Positions 19,124 through 43,015 of a stretch of 43,015 bases of DNA are shown in pieces; within the stretch, counting starts at the first letter, position 1, and every line of letters begins with the position of its first letter. Source of the stretch: Labilithrix sp. (GTDB lineage: Bacteria > Myxococcota_A > Polyangia > Polyangiales > Polyangiaceae); NCBI GenBank assembly GCA_019637105.1, contig JAHBWF010000060.1, forward strand, positions 1 through 43,015. The letters are read 5' to 3'. The notes beneath the pieces were generated by a model. That model made no database searches. It was not told where the DNA came from and saw only the letters and a list, made by a program, of their open reading frames with translations. The position numbers and the translations under genes were made by a program.

Positions 19124-20419
19124 ATGGCCGAGCTCACAGCGGATGCCGTCGTCAGCAAAGTCAAACGCGGCGAGAAGATCGATCGCGCGGACCTGTCGGG
19201 GATCAACCTGTCGAACGCGATGCTCGAAGGCGCGAGCTTCCGTCGTTGCGACATGGTCGGAGCGAACCTCGAAGGCGCGAAGCTTCGCAACGCGAACCTG
19301 AAGAGCGCCAACCTCTGCGAGGCGTTCCTCTCCGGCGCGGATCTCCGGGACGCGAACCTCGACAACGCGGACCTGGAGGGCGCGAACCTGCAGCGCACGC
19401 TGCTCGCGGGCGCGAACCTCTCGCGCGCGAACCTCGAGGGCGCGAACCTCCAGGGCGCGAACCTCTCCGGCGCGCGGCTCACGCACGCCCAGCTCGATCT
19501 CGCGAACCTCGGCGGCGCGGACGTCGCCGGGGCCGTCCTCACGCACGCGGATCTCGGCGAGTGCTACCTCGGCGCCGTCAAGATGATGAAGGCGGAGCTG
19601 ACGAACGCCAACCTGAACGACTCGAACCTCGAGGACGGCGACTTCACCGGCGCCATCCTCGCGGACGCGCAGATGCGCGGGATCAAGGCGCGCGGCGCGA
19701 AGCTCGTCGGCGCGGTGCTCTCGAAGGCCGATCTCGGGAAGGCGAACCTCACGAACGCCGACCTGACCAACGCGGACCTCCGGAACGCGACGCTCGGCGA
19801 CGCGAAGCTCGAAGGCGCGAACCTCACGGGCGCGAAGGTCCACGGGCTCACGGCGAAGGGCGCTCAGCTCGCCGGCATCAAGGCCGACTGGCTCGACAAC
19901 AGCCCGAACGCCGACGGCTCGGTGCGCGTGCAGGCCGCGCAGGTCCAGGCGGTCCTCTCGGGCGAGGCGCCGATCGCGGCGGCGCGCGAGTCGTCGCGAT
20001 CGGCCAACCACCGCTACTTCGGGCGCGGCGACGTGCTCCGCAACGCGTCGCTCCAGTTCGACGAGGGCGCGACCGTCGAGATCGAGAGCCTCTTCGAGTC
20101 GTGCACGATCGCGCTCGGTCGCGGCACCGAGCTCTTGATCGGACCCGACGGCATCCTCGCCGGGTGTCAGATCACCGGCGCGGGGAACATCACGATCAAC
20201 GGCAAGTTCTTCGAAGCGACCGGCGGCCGCAAGAGCGGCCCCGCGATCGTCGGCGCCCATCAGCTCGTGGTCTCCTCGACCGGAGCGATGGTCGGCGCCG
20301 TCCAGCAGCCGCAGGAGCTCACGCGCTTCGCGTTCGAGCCCGGCTGTCAGCTTCGCGTGCGCATCACGACAGGGAACGGTTCGGGGAACGGGAACGGCGC
20401 AAAGGGCGGCAGGAAGTAA
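19124..20419 (+). CDS. Pentapeptide-repeat protein with bactofilin-like C-terminal beta-helix
   Basis: The 431-residue protein has two parts. Residues about 15-255 are pentapeptide repeats of the A(D/N)LXX type (for example ANLEGANLQGANLSGARL), which fold as a right-handed quadrilateral beta-helix. After a linker (about 260-300) comes a second repetitive beta region (GDVLRNASLQFDEGATVEIESL ... GPDGILAGCQITGAGNITINGKFFE ... VVSSTGAMVGAVQQ). Its short strands and turn Gly/Asn resemble bactofilin or DUF583 helices. The protein ends in a Gly/Asn-rich tail. No signal peptide is seen, so it is cytoplasmic. A bactofilin gene follows 21 bp later, which suggests that the two proteins assemble together. 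Confidence 0.88.
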   Translation: MAELTADAVVSKVKRGEKIDRADLSGINLSNAMLEGASFRRCDMVGANLEGAKLRNANLKSANLCEAFLSGADLRDANLDNADLEGANLQRTLLAGANLSRANLEGANLQGANLSGARLTHAQLDLANLGGADVAGAVLTHADLGECYLGAVKMMKAELTNANLNDSNLEDGDFTGAILADAQMRGIKARGAKLVGAVLSKADLGKANLTNADLTNADLRNATLGDAKLEGANLTGAKVHGLTAKGAQLAGIKADWLDNSPNADGSVRVQAAQVQAVLSGEAPIAAARESSRSANHRYFGRGDVLRNASLQFDEGATVEIESLFESCTIALGRGTELLIGPDGILAGCQITGAGNITINGKFFEATGGRKSGPAIVGAHQLVVSSTGAMVGAVQQPQELTRFAFEPGCQLRVRITTGNGSGNGNGAKGGRK

Positions 20420-31530: not shown

Positions 31531-31603
31531 ACGCGGAGGGCGGCCTCGCGGCGGCTCGGTGAGCCGGGCGGAGGACGCCCCGGCGCTCGGGCGTGCCCGG
31601 CGC

Positions 31604-31666
31604 TCGCGCCGGATCACTCGCGCCGGATCACTCGCGCCGGATCACTCGCGCCGGATCACTCGCGCC
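31604..31666. repeat. 14-bp tandem repeat, 4.5 copies, between convergent genes
   Basis: Four perfect copies of TCGCGCCGGATCAC (31604-31617, 31618-31631, 31632-31645, 31646-31659) and 7 bp of a fifth. The stop codon of the MlaD-like gene (31656-31658) is the one lying in the first copy read on the minus strand, so copy-number change would not alter the protein. Confidence 0.95.
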
Positions 31667-38445: not shown

Positions 38446-39501
38446 TCAGTCGTCGCCGGCGGGCGGCGCGGGCGCGCGCGTCGGCGGCGGCGGCGCCATC
38501 GCCTCGTCGGAGAGCGGCGCCATCGCCTCGTCGGAGAGCGGCGCCATCGCCTCGTCGGGGAGCGGCGCCATCGCCTCGCCGGAGAGCGGCGCGAGTGCGT
38601 CGTCGACGGGCGGCTCGGTCGCGCCGGTCGACGCGTCGGCCGGCGTCGACCAGGCCTCGACGAGCGGGGGCGGCTCCTCGAGCGGCGGCTCCACGCCGGG
38701 CGGCCGCGGCGCGTAGCGCGCGAACCCGCGCGTGTTCGAGACGTCGTCGACGAAGCCGAAGCTCCGCGGCGGATCGGGCGGCGTGGCTTCGGTGAAGCCG
38801 TCCGGGACCGTGTCCTCGGGCATCGTGCTCGGGTCCGAGCACGTCAACATGACGGCGCTGCTGCACTCGGCCACGCACTGCGCGGCGACCTTGGCCTTGC
38901 AGGTCGTGAAGCCGTCGACGGAGCATCGGATCTGGCAGGCGACGTGCGCCTCGACCGAGCAGGTCGCCTCGCAGGAGGCCTTGCAGGTGCCGTTGCACGA
39001 CGCGTCGACGCGCTTCTGGCAGTTCTGCCGGCAGCTCTGGTCGCACTGCCCCTCGCAGGTCTCGCGGCACTGCTCGGAGTTCCACGCGCCGGCGCAGAGC
39101 TTCCTGCAGTTGTCGTCGCAGCGCCCGTCGCACGAGACGTGGCAGGAGACGTCGCCGCTGGCGGCGCAGTCGATCCCGCAGTCGGAGTTGCAGCTGTCGA
39201 GGCAGGTGCCGGTCGCCTCCGCCCCGCACTGCCCGTCGCAGGCGGCGCCGAGGGTGGCGTCGCAGACGGCGTCGAAGTCGATCTCGGAGCAGCGGAGCGG
39301 GCAGTCGATCTTCGCCGTCATGAAGCAGCCCATCATCGGGCCGCCGCTCTGCAGCCCGGATCGGGCGTCGTTGTTGGGCTCGGTCGCGAGCGCGCAGCCG
39401 AGGACCCAGCTCGCGATGGTCACTCCCATCGCGGCGAGCGGTCTGACCGGACGCGCCGAGGGCCGGAGGTCCTCAGGGATCATGAGCTGAGACGAGTGCA
39501 T
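38446..39501 (-). CDS. Cys-ladder lipoprotein (CX3C repeats) with 8-residue C-terminal repeats
   Basis: From ATG 39501 (GGAG 6 nt upstream) the 351-residue protein has a signal with lipobox WVLGC (Cys36) and a Cys-rich region at about 55-220. It holds about 30 Cys, mostly three residues apart, as in CRETCEGQCDQSCRQNC and CNGTCKASCEATC. An acidic Pro-rich linker follows, then four copies of an eight-residue DEAMAPLS-type repeat (DNA repeat 38492-38587) and APAPPAGDD at the end. The even number of Cys and their regular spacing suggest a disulfide ladder in an exported rod-like domain. It lies downstream of, and on the same strand as, the Asn-rich repeat lipoprotein, so both may be expressed together. 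No known family was recognised. Confidence 0.75.
   Translation of the reverse strand: MHSSQLMIPEDLRPSARPVRPLAAMGVTIASWVLGCALATEPNNDARSGLQSGGPMMGCFMTAKIDCPLRCSEIDFDAVCDATLGAACDGQCGAEATGTCLDSCNSDCGIDCAASGDVSCHVSCDGRCDDNCRKLCAGAWNSEQCRETCEGQCDQSCRQNCQKRVDASCNGTCKASCEATCSVEAHVACQIRCSVDGFTTCKAKVAAQCVAECSSAVMLTCSDPSTMPEDTVPDGFTEATPPDPPRSFGFVDDVSNTRGFARYAPRPPGVEPPLEEPPPLVEAWSTPADASTGATEPPVDDALAPLSGEAMAPLPDEAMAPLSDEAMAPLSDEAMAPPPPTRAPAPPAGDD
38492..38587 (-). repeat. 24-bp coding tandem repeat, four copies
   Basis: Units at 38492-38515, 38516-38539, 38540-38563 and 38564-38587 with one or two mismatches. Each encodes eight residues of the DEAMAPLS type, so copy-number change would keep the frame. 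Confidence 0.9.
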
Positions 39502-39638: not shown

Positions 39639-42125
39639 TCACTCCGGCTTCGCGACGCGGTCGCCGAGCGGCGCCGCCTCGACAGCCTCGACCGCGGCGG
39701 GCGCGATCACCGGGCCGACCACGGGGGCGATGACGCCCACGCCGCCGAGGCCGATGCCGCAACCGGGGAACGTCTGCGCGAAGCTCTGGTTCGCGGCGAC
39801 GTTGTTGGCCGAGTTGCCCGTGAACACGTTGAGGACCGCGTTCTGGTTGTTCGCCGTGGCGTTGACGGCGAGCACCATGTTGTTCGACGAGAACTGCTGG
39901 AGGTTCGTCATCGCCTGGTACTGCTGGGCGACCTGCTGGTTCATCGCGCGGGCCGTGCTCTGCGAAGCAGCGGTCTGGCTCGCGAGGTTGTTGCTCTGGT
40001 TGAGCGAGCCGGAGTTGAGCGCCGCAGCCGACGCGTTCCGGTTGACGCTGGCGAGGTTCCTGAGCGTCGTCGCGTTGTTCGCCACGTTCGCGAAGTCCGC
40101 GTAGCCGGTCGTGTTGCGCACGAAGTTGCCGGTGTTGTACGCGTCCTGCGTCAGGTTGTCGTTGTGCAGGTTCGCCTGGTTCTGGACCGAGTCGAACGAG
40201 CTCACGTTGTTGTACGAGTTCGACGTGACCGCGTTGCGCGAGTTCGCCGCGACCTGGTCGAACGCCGCCTGCTGCGCGTTGCTGAACACGTTCGAGTAGT
40301 TGTTGTCGAACATGTTCGCGTAGGCGCTGGTGTTCTGCGCCGCGGCGAGCTGATCGAACGACGCCGAGCGGGCGTTGCTGCCGAGGCTCGAGAAGTTGTT
40401 GTCGAACATGTTCGCGTAGGCGCTGGTGTTCTGCGCCGCGGCGAGCTGATCGAACGACGCCGAGCGAGCGTTGCTGGCGAGGTTCGAGAAGTTGCTGTCG
40501 AACATGTTCGCGTAGGCGCTGTTGTTCTGGATCGCGCTGAGCTGGTCGAACGACCCGGAGCGCGCGTTGCTGAACACGTTCGCGAGGTTGTTGTCGAACA
40601 TGTTCGCGTAGGCGCTGTTGTTCTGGATCGCGCTGAGCTGATCGAACGACCCGGAGCGCGCGTTGCTGAACACGTTCGAGAAGTTGTTGTCGAACATGTT
40701 CGCGTAGGCGCTGTTGTTCTGCGCCGCGAGGATGTTGTTGAGCGAGCTCGAGCGCGCGTTGTTGAACACCGAGTTCATGTTGAACGCGCCGACGTTCGCG
40801 ATGTCGCCCCAGCCGAAGCCGCCCCAGCCCCAGCCGACGGGGGCCGCGCCGATGCCGAACTGCGTCGCGAACGTGTTCGCGCCGTTGAAGGCGTCGGAGC
40901 TCTGGGCGGTGTTGGCCGCGTTGAGCGCGTTCGACGTCACGCCGGCGTTGCGCGCCGAGTTGGCGACGTTCGAGGCGCCCTGGGCCGCGTCCGCGTACTG
41001 CGCCGCGTTGGCCGAGTTCGCCACGTTCGTGGCGGAGCCGGCGTTGCGCGCCGAGTTGGCGATGTTCGAGGCGCCCTGGGTCGCGTCGGCGTACTGCGCC
41101 GCGTTGGCCGCGTTGGCCGCGTTGGTGGCGGAGCCCGCGTTGGTCGCCGAGTTGGCGATGTTCGAGGCGCCCTGGGTCGCGTCGGCGTACTGCGCCGCGT
41201 TGGCCGCGTTGACCGCGTTGGCCGCGGAGCCCGCGTTGCTCGCCAGGTTGGAGCCGTTCGCCGCGTAGGTGTTCGCGTCGCTGAACTGCGCCGCGTTGGC
41301 CGCGTTGAAGGCGTCCGTCGCCGAGCCGGCGTTGCGCGCCGAGTTGGCGGCGTTGGTCGCGTAGGTGTTCGCGTCGCTGAACTGCGCCGCGTTGGCCGCG
41401 CTGAAGGCGTCCGTCGCCGAGCCGGCGTTGCGCGCCGAGTTGGCGACGTTGCTGGCGCCCTGGGCGGCGTTCGCGAACTGTCCGGAGTTCGCCCAGTTGT
41501 TCGCCTCCGAGCTCGCCGCGTTGAACGCGCCGGCGTTGGCGGCGTTGGCCGACTGCGCGGCGTTGGCGGCGCTCGACCACGTGTTCGCGTCGTTCGACGA
41601 CCACACGTTGTTGTAGCCCGAGGCCTGGTTCCGCGCGAACTGCGTGCTGGTGCCCGTCGCCGCCGTGTTCGCGATGTTCGCGGTCGTCGCGATCGACGTG
41701 CTGTCCATCGTGTCGATGGCGGTGGCGTTCTGCCAGCTGGCCGCGTTCTGCTGCGCGAGCAGGTTCGCCTGCTGGTACGCGCTGGTGAAGTTCGAGACCT
41801 CGTCGAGCATCGAGGTGAACGAGCTGTCGAGCGCGCTCGAGTTCGCGGTGCTCGCGATCAGCGTCTGCTGGTTGTTCTGATCGAGCGCGAACAGCTGCGC
41901 GTTGACGTTCGAGAACGACGACTGGTCGAGGGCGACGAAGTCGATGAGGTTGTTCGAGTTGATGTCGAAGATGCCGGTACCGGTGCAACCGTTGACGGCG
42001 AAGCCACGCGACGTGATCGCAGACTTGGTCTGTTGCGGCGCGTTTGCCTGCTCGTCCCCACAGCCAGCCAGTGCGGCAGCGAGCATACCGAGCACAACAC
42101 CGCTCACAGAGAAATGCCTTTTCAT
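39639..42125 (-). CDS. Asn/Ala-rich lipoprotein with eleven 32-residue repeats
   Basis: From ATG 42125 (AAGGAG 8 nt upstream) the 828-residue protein has signal peptide MKRHFSVSGVVLGMLAAALA and lipobox LAGC (Cys22). Residues about 60-210 are Asn/Ser/Thr/Ala-rich without clear repeats. Residues 212-403 are six 32-residue repeats (type A: ANAAQYADATQGASNIANSA then RNAGSATNAANA). A hinge at 404-456 contains GWGWGGFGWGD. Residues 457-616 are five more 32-residue repeats (type B: ARSGSFDQLSAIQNNSAYAN then MFDNNFSNVFSN). The rest is Asn-rich and ends in a hydrophobic Gly/Val/Pro tail (GLGGVGVIAPVVGPVIAPAA). It is almost free of Cys and poor in charge. A repetitive surface fibre, adhesin or matrix protein is the best inference. 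No database family was recognised. Confidence 0.85.
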   Translation of the reverse strand: MKRHFSVSGVVLGMLAAALAGCGDEQANAPQQTKSAITSRGFAVNGCTGTGIFDINSNNLIDFVALDQSSFSNVNAQLFALDQNNQQTLIASTANSSALDSSFTSMLDEVSNFTSAYQQANLLAQQNAASWQNATAIDTMDSTSIATTANIANTAATGTSTQFARNQASGYNNVWSSNDANTWSSAANAAQSANAANAGAFNAASSEANNWANSGQFANAAQGASNVANSARNAGSATDAFSAANAAQFSDANTYATNAANSARNAGSATDAFNAANAAQFSDANTYAANGSNLASNAGSAANAVNAANAAQYADATQGASNIANSATNAGSATNAANAANAAQYADATQGASNIANSARNAGSATNVANSANAAQYADAAQGASNVANSARNAGVTSNALNAANTAQSSDAFNGANTFATQFGIGAAPVGWGWGGFGWGDIANVGAFNMNSVFNNARSSSLNNILAAQNNSAYANMFDNNFSNVFSNARSGSFDQLSAIQNNSAYANMFDNNLANVFSNARSGSFDQLSAIQNNSAYANMFDSNFSNLASNARSASFDQLAAAQNTSAYANMFDNNFSSLGSNARSASFDQLAAAQNTSAYANMFDNNYSNVFSNAQQAAFDQVAANSRNAVTSNSYNNVSSFDSVQNQANLHNDNLTQDAYNTGNFVRNTTGYADFANVANNATTLRNLASVNRNASAAALNSGSLNQSNNLASQTAASQSTARAMNQQVAQQYQAMTNLQQFSSNNMVLAVNATANNQNAVLNVFTGNSANNVAANQSFAQTFPGCGIGLGGVGVIAPVVGPVIAPAAVEAVEAAPLGDRVAKPE
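40278..40757 (-). repeat. 96-bp coding tandem repeat, five copies (type B)
   Basis: Five 96-bp units: 40278-40373, 40374-40469, 40470-40565, 40566-40661, 40662-40757. The segment spelling QNNSAYANMFD (or QNTSAYANMFD) recurs at exactly 96-bp spacing. Neighbouring copies are nearly identical, which indicates recent duplication or gene conversion. Confidence 0.97.
40917..41492 (-). repeat. 96-bp coding tandem repeat, six copies (type A)
   Basis: Six 96-bp units between 40917 and 41492 encode 32-residue blocks beginning ANAAQ(Y/F) or ANSGQF. They share NSARNAG with only local changes. A degenerate seventh copy (ANTAQSSDAFNG) borders the hinge. Confidence 0.95.
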
Positions 42126-42524: not shown

Positions 42525-42740
42525 TCGCTCGACCGTTGCCTCGCTCGACCGTTGCGTCGCGACCGCGATTCCGCTCGACCGTTGCGTCGCGACCGTGAAT
42601 CCGCTCGACCGTTACGTCGCGACCGTGAATCCGCTCGACCGTTGCGTCGCGACCGTGAATCCGCTCGACCGTTGCGTCGCGACCGTGAATCCGCTCGACC
42701 GTTGCGTCGCGACCGTGAATCCGCTCGCCTGTTGCGTCGC
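42525..42740. repeat. 30-bp tandem repeat array
   Basis: A core CGCTCGACCGTTGCGTCGCG plus ACCGTGAATC recurs every 30 bp at 42542, 42572, 42602, 42632, 42662 and 42692, with a decayed seventh copy at 42722 and a half copy at 42526. Copies differ by zero to two bases. There are no unique spacers, so it is a satellite and not a CRISPR array. Both strands stay open because 30 is divisible by 3. Confidence 0.95.
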
Positions 42741-43015
42741 GCGGACCGTTTCGTCTCGTGGTTCGCTCGACCATGCATCGCTCGCTCAACCGTTTGTCTC
42801 GCTCGAGCGTGGGACGTCGCGGCTGTACGCTCGACCGTTCGGCTCGCCGCGCGAGGGATCGCTCGACCGTTGCGTCGCTCGACTGCTTCTTCGCGGACCC
42901 GTTTTGTTTCGGGGGATCGCTCGCCGCGCGTCGCTCGCTCGACCGTTCGTCTCGCTCGACCGTTTGACGTCACCGTGGTTCGCTCGACCGTGCATCGGTC
43001 GAACCGTCCCTCGTT
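42741..43015. repeat. Dispersed copies of TCGCTCGACCGTT running off the window end
   Basis: The core of the 30-bp unit recurs at irregular spacing (near 42762, 42784, 42827, 42859, 42937, 42953 and 42979) among degenerate sequence up to the last base. It looks like the eroded or seeding part of the adjacent array. No gene is supported here. Confidence 0.8.

Follow-up and report, generated by a model that had tools for sequence, protein, structure and literature searches.

The repeat-protein gene and its two arrays

The window, a 43,015-nucleotide stretch of DNA from Labilithrix (a genus classified in the Myxococcota, Polyangiales), was found to carry on its minus strand an open reading frame (42125..39639) with an ATG start, preceded by an AAGGAG motif, and a predicted product of 828 residues. 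By inspection, residues 1-22 (42060..42125, minus strand) form a candidate signal peptide ending in the lipobox LAGC, with Cys22 as the +1 residue, and by this pattern the product is a putative bacterial lipoprotein, as the initial annotation had read it. The chain then passes through the N-terminal half of a split head, a first arm, a Gly/Trp tip, a second arm, the C-terminal half of the head and a Gly/Pro-rich tail. Comparison of gene neighbours placed a Cys-rich putative lipoprotein gene, here termed CysL (38446..39501, minus strand), adjacent and downstream.

Arm 1 (residues 104-430; 40836..41816, minus strand), delimited by alignment and arm measurement, and arm 2 (residues 441-740; 39906..40805, minus strand) flank the tip GWGWGGFGWG (residues 431-440; 40806..40835, minus strand), which was located by alignment of relatives; arm 2 was measured from residue 440 in arm-length counts. 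TRF detected two 96-bp arrays, one at 40245-40769 with a score of 701 and the other at 40911-41480 with a score of 649. Copy scoring resolved the array of arm 1 into six 32-residue copies, termed A (residues 202-393; 40947..41522, minus strand; starts at 202, 234, 266, 298, 330 and 362), and that of arm 2 into five 32-residue copies of a second type, termed B (residues 456-615; 40281..40760, minus strand; starts at 456, 488, 520, 552 and 584). Degenerate edge copies follow the A array at residue 394 and the B array at residue 616. Self-identity at a lag of 32 residues reached 0.68 across the A array region and 0.73 across that of B, above the maxima over all lags of 1000 shuffles (0.32 and 0.27, respectively). 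Thus, the eleven exact 96-bp repeats (six A and five B), their coordinates and the strict 32-residue period described from the letters were all borne out. The arrays are also separated by an aromatic/Gly segment as described, but the length of 53 residues given for it depends on the phase chosen; in the present phase it spans 62 residues (394-455), the degenerate A copy included.

Consensus sequences were derived from six proteins and read AGSASNAANAANAAQFADANQGASNVANSARN for A (41 copies scored) and NARSSSFDQLSAAQNNSAFANMFDNNFSNVFS for B (36 copies scored). When the AR dipeptides are aligned by eye, the aromatic and Ile/Val positions of A and B nearly coincide, and descent of the two repeats from a common ancestor is plausible. 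Asn is conserved in A at position 8 (39 of 41 copies), position 11 (37/41) and position 27 (36/41). The near absence of charge and of Cys reported at the outset was also found, with charged residues making up 6% of arm 1 and 8% of arm 2, and Cys present only at positions 22, 47 and 789.

Relatives, the split head and matched arms

A whole-protein search matched five of 59 genomes, the window genome included, all of one genus. By use of a head profile at E <= 0.001, five of the 13 genomes of the genus were matched, again including the window genome, so that the protein is conserved in some related genomes. The same five were recovered from 109 genomes of the family, with none matched among the 96 family genomes outside the genus. 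A match in G005 (E 0.0056) was dropped as weak, as were dropped two on contig C332 of G000 (E 0.03 and 8). In a draw of 377 genomes across the phylum, with at most ten candidates scored per genome, the only match was the window genome; the four other carriers were probably not in that draw.

A single reading frame covers each of six array proteins (that of the window, two in G004, two in G007 and one, with an N-run, in G003), and three array-less relatives were detected, all in G010. Arms span about 295 to 487 residues in the array proteins. The array-less relatives of 382 and 357 residues have arms of ~90 residues and a Gly-rich turn with no A or B copies, and in the shortest, of 216 residues, ~67 residues separate the head motifs and the tip motif is missing. 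G007 carries parts of at least three copies; two different second-type paralogues were seen on separate contigs (L025 18453-18935; L026 777-3167), which implies at least three cassettes. The second paralogue of G003 (L023 8412-11555) changes frame across two N-runs (71 and 60 bases), for which a scaffolding artefact is the simplest account. A 783-residue open frame at L031 4294-6645 was noted to contain many repeats resembling YGNAFGATPFERNAF.

The initial description of a repetitive putative lipoprotein outside any recognised family stood up to the family searches. Eight members compared to Pfam at E <= 1 gave no match except one to an unrelated viral family (E3A, E 0.98), taken as chance. 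The window protein had no significant match in NCBIfam (LptM, at E 0.56 over the signal peptide, was taken as chance), and four members compared to PHROGs gave nothing beyond chance (phrog_28491, E 0.054; phrog_1589, E 0.94). Among PDB sequences, the full profile had no match and the head profile a single one at E = 6, also taken as chance. One profile searched against viral contigs found no relative.

Alignment revealed that the head is split to both ends of the protein in all nine proteins, that of the window included. The N half (residues 36-103; 41817..42020, minus strand), defined by alignment and the head profile, has in the array proteins the motifs GF-V-GC, FDI and FVALD, in that order, with the invariant Cys47. 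The C half (residues 741-792; 39750..39905, minus strand), defined by alignment, has VL-V, VFTGN and F-GC, with the invariant Cys789. Each half contains one Cys in 9/9 proteins, and beyond the lipobox Cys these are the sole Cys of those nine. The lipobox reads LAGC or LTGC in four of the nine; the other five, with AAGC or AAAC, depart from the strict Leu at -3. The Gly/Pro-rich tail ending LGDRVAKPE (39642..39749, minus strand) is common to all array-type copies with the end read and absent from the three array-less relatives.

Arm 1 was measured between a fixed motif of the N half and the tip, and arm 2 between the tip and a fixed motif of the C half. By this approach, the arms were found to be 327/301 residues in the window protein, 359/365, 295/301, 323/333 and 295/301 in four other array proteins, 487/476 in that of G003 (with the N-run inside arm 2), and 90/98 and 87/96 in two array-less relatives. 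The two arms are matched to within 11 residues in seven of these eight proteins (r = 0.996); those of the window protein differ by 26 residues, with one A repeat extra. When the lengths were re-paired, 24 of 40320 orders matched as well for the eight proteins, as did 12 of 720 when the array proteins were taken by themselves, counts to be read as a guide and not as true probabilities because the proteins are few and related.

The copy numbers of the relatives, a comparison that the initial annotation had proposed, were found to vary. Based on a shared alignment, nA/nB was 7/7, 5/5, 6/6 and 5/5, with 6/5 in the window protein, so that A and B are equal in four of the five gap-free array proteins. 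The count of 11/10 in G003 includes, among its ten B copies, two weak matches beside the N-run inside B. By score alone the second copy of G004 is 7/6, because a degenerate edge copy (396, 15.9 bits) just passes the threshold; this weak edge A copy was counted out there as in the other proteins, and a weak first A match (17.9) was kept in the second copy of G007. The second copy of G003, which two N-runs whose size is uncertain interrupt, has arms of about 420/427 as judged from positions. Repeats may be miscounted, as every assembly is a draft. Spacing around the arrays was 98 residues from the N half of the head to the first A and 157 from the last B to the C half in 6/6 array proteins, and 69 from the last A to the tip and 25 from the tip to the first B in five of the six.

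Constraint, periodicity and a proposed fold-back rod

The stalk is strict in its length. The first and second paralogues of G007, at 48% identity, align with zero stalk gaps, and the window protein and the second copy of G007, at 47-48% identity, with one stalk gap of 32 residues. In other pairs among the 15, the aligner divided or displaced gaps (13+19, 16+16, 9+23), and one gap of 4 residues and single-residue gaps close to the tip were also present; pairs with G003 had gap lengths such as 78, 174, 105, 37, 33, 47 and 6, at places where the N-run lies or where the alignment of many copies is ambiguous. Pro accounts for 6 of 4483 arm residues compared to 5.1% of 10697 residues in the other ORFs of the window, and by inspection all six adjoin the tip. 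The arms are under purifying selection, with dN/dS values of 0.20-0.27 vs G004, 0.37-0.52 vs G007 and 0.46-0.51 vs G003; values for the 23 codons of the tip were 1.34, 0.37 and 0.26 across the three comparisons. The arms of the window protein are unlike in composition, arm 1 having 38% Ala plus Gly and 13% large hydrophobic residues and arm 2 having 21% and 24%, a contrast that is not clear in the two array-less stalks.

Disordered linkers are not expected to show such keeping of length, scarcity of Pro and low dN/dS. These properties weigh on the reading of the protein as a functional amyloid or as a disordered matrix protein rich in Asn, Gln and Ala (curli- or Fap-like), in which the repeats would be polymerising units. 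Asn at 17-20% and Gln at 6-8% in the window arms, the low charge, the repeats and the lipid anchor are as this reading would have them, as are the Chou-Fasman means, of which turn is the highest of three in both arrays (1.06 and 1.08, compared to 1.03 and 0.99 for helix). However, disorder predicts neither the scarcity of Pro nor a gap-free stalk of 600 residues at 48% identity, amyloid does not predict matched arms, and Pfam, which presumably includes models of the curlin and Fap repeats, returned neither for the eight members. We consider it improbable.

Periodicity was analyzed on the repeat profiles. Hydrophobicity power at 90-112 degrees per residue amounted to 40% (p 0.030 in A and 0.034 in B), with peaks at 3.2 residues in A and 4.0 residues in B; an array-less arm (arm 1 of L028) peaks at 99 degrees. 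No excess was detected in the strand range (p 0.93 in A and in B), nor was there significant power at the coiled-coil frequency of nine turns per 32 residues (p 0.32 in A and 0.38 in B). A canonical coiled coil, heptad or hendecad, was rejected for the arrays, which have no 9/32 peak. The A array has a half-period, with a self-identity at lag 16 of 0.337 compared to a shuffle maximum of 0.316, and B has none (0.188). A straight helix leaves this weak 16-residue half-period of A unexplained. Helical arms are most likely, as judged from these profiles, and are the weakest step of the fold-back model set out below; the argument that the arms pair is independent of the helix.

The strict 32-residue period, the half-period of A and its conserved Asn at positions 8, 11 and 27 could also be accommodated by a continuous solenoid or fibre, with the A and B arrays stacked end to end (as an alpha- or beta-solenoid) and the tip as a kink. 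Solenoids show Asn ladders, to which the Asn positions of the A repeat may be likened. The solenoid or series of stacked hairpins put forward in the initial annotation, if continued through the A and B arrays alike, found no support in the relatives. Such a stack gives no reason for arms that are matched from 87/96 up to 487/476 residues, nor for a head split to both ends by the stalk with one Cys in each half; strand-type alternation is lacking, and no Pfam repeat family (TPR, pentapeptide, LRR and others) was matched at E <= 1. We regard this explanation as unlikely.

The arrangement that we favour, at a probability slightly better than one in two, is a lipid-anchored antiparallel rod that folds back on itself with the Gly/Trp tip far from the membrane. 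An antiparallel fold-back is proposed because the head is split, the stalk has a turn in its middle, the arms are matched and both share the 32-residue period. The lipid and the N half of the small head would start the chain at the membrane; arm 1, with its A repeats rich in Ala, Asn and Gly, would run outward, the chain would turn at the tip, and arm 2, with its B repeats richer in Phe, Tyr and Met, would return to the C half of the head. The head would be closed by contact of its two halves, with a Cys47-Cys789 disulphide as the probable link. The two arms would lie side by side and antiparallel, most likely as long helices, and the unlike composition of the arms in the array proteins (small vs large residues) suits such packing. 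As the lipid is beside the head, the tip would be distal, and as the arms would pair, repeats would be gained or lost in both. The window protein, one repeat off at 6/5, counts against this model, as do the lack of a coiled-coil peak, the Chou-Fasman means with turn slightly above helix, the missing compositional contrast in the array-less stalks and the tip dN/dS of 1.34 in one comparison.

In the fold-back rod, the stalk would act as a spacer with repeat copy number setting the distance from tip to membrane. Based on a helix rise of 1.5 A per residue, a fully helical rod would measure about 13 nm in the array-less relatives, about 45 nm in the window protein and about 70 nm in G003. The rod is predicted to lie on the outer surface, where the tip may touch a partner surface, the matrix or the neighbouring Cys-rich protein; a role as a fibre, matrix or adhesion protein, as initially suggested, may be of this kind. 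Tentatively, the two unlike arms may have been amplified in step, with repeat number serving as a ruler for the reach of a sticky aromatic tip, which a one-chain hairpin stalk would carry as far out as about 70 nm, in one genus so far and paired with a Cys-rich partner. If true, this would be an undescribed family in which two unlike arrays co-evolve in copy number because they pair, such that repeat evolution would be a direct read-out of structure. Loss of one A and one B would shorten the rod by about 5 nm (if helical) and loss of one alone would lead to misfolding, and the protein would represent a natural blueprint for an Ala/Asn rod of great length with hardly any Pro and little charge.

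Gene neighbourhood and known systems

A Cys-rich gene follows nine of the 11 copies that have downstream sequence, the window copy among them, including 8/8 in array-bearing genomes and 1/3 in G010. A single contig in G003, and likewise in G004, carries in order an MlaF-type ATPase gene, the second paralogue, a Cys-rich gene, the first paralogue, a Cys-rich gene and a convergent gene for a putative lipoprotein of 608 residues; G007 and the window genome fit this order on two contigs each. The 608-residue protein gene is also present in G002 (66-68% identity), with neither a stalk gene nor a Cys-rich gene within the 5 kb of contig beyond it. Relatives of CysL were detected in 34 of 59 genomes, its own and close genomes included. 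Distant ones sit in other surroundings in the stretches listed, and no stalk-protein partner was seen by eye near CysL genes in 12 such stretches (eight from other genera and four from this genus); in L075 and L077 of this survey, the ORF taken as Cys-richest was not the CysL gene. CysL (38446-39501) has 24-bp tandem repeats near its end, and several distant relatives have a hydrophobic stretch and an Arg-rich end, absent from the window copy, which we take to resemble MYXO-CTERM.

The MlaF-type ATPase gene adjoins a cassette in four array-bearing genomes, and MlaE- and MlaD-type genes are near the cassettes where the sequence extends that far. Of nine neighbour proteins compared to Pfam, five matched MlaD, ABC ATPase, MlaE, a kinase and, weakly, cytochrome c', and the other four matched nothing; there was no pump pair among them. 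This setting speaks for a periplasmic adaptor-like hairpin that would serve the neighbouring MlaF/MlaE/MlaD lipid-transport genes. However, Mla queries gave no match in the available sequence flanking the three array-less relatives, and arms of 300-490 residues, if helical, would exceed the width of the periplasm. Many periplasmic adaptors are lipoproteins, and the hairpin splits their head (lipoyl domain). In the efflux adaptors AcrA, EmrA and BesA, a small beta head bears a helical hairpin that differs in length among members and is absent in BesA (PMC4158417). The matched arms and split head found here by alignment may correspond to such a layout; the EmrA hairpin is given as 127 A, far shorter than the arms here. 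By contrast, no adaptor (MFP)- or HlyD-type profile of Pfam was matched by the eight members. To our knowledge, 32-residue arrays, a Gly/Trp tip and a Cys pair are not adaptor features. The residue after the lipobox Cys (+2) is Gly in the window protein, vs Lys in 8/12 inner-membrane lipoproteins of M. xanthus (PMC3222651), and by the M. xanthus rules, carried by analogy to Labilithrix, this Gly would not be an inner-membrane signal. Overall, service as an Mla adaptor appears very improbable.

For the fold-back rod, FibA and other matrix lipoproteins of M. xanthus offer a myxobacterial comparison; they are exported beyond the inner membrane, and Ala is found at +7 in 7/10 of them (PMC3222651). 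Both full-length second paralogues and a fragment from G000 carry this matrix signal; the window protein has Asn at +7 and the second copy of G003 has Val. Maxi, an antifreeze protein of winter flounder, is an Ala-rich repeat helix discussed as a hairpin, with a four-helix bundle and a water core (PMC5304152), and is an example of a stable hairpin that is both polar and rich in Ala. It differs in its 11-residue TX10 repeat and in being a fish plasma protein, and no PDB sequence matched the profile used here. We know of no head, lipid anchor or aromatic tip in Maxi. Hairpin stalks thus have precedents; no family of lipoproteins whose two unlike arrays are kept equal in size was found in the literature searched, which consisted of titles and the openings of abstracts, with subscription journals mostly outside its scope.

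Other repeats were observed in the window. A 30-bp tandem repeat (42542-42741; 6.7 copies, 96% matches) lies upstream of the repeat-protein gene near the contig end, and a 14-bp direct repeat (31603-31666; 4.6 copies, 100% matches) lies beside and partly under the end of the MlaD-type gene. An ORF at 19124-20419 contains tandem repeats that read as ANL-type pentapeptide-like.
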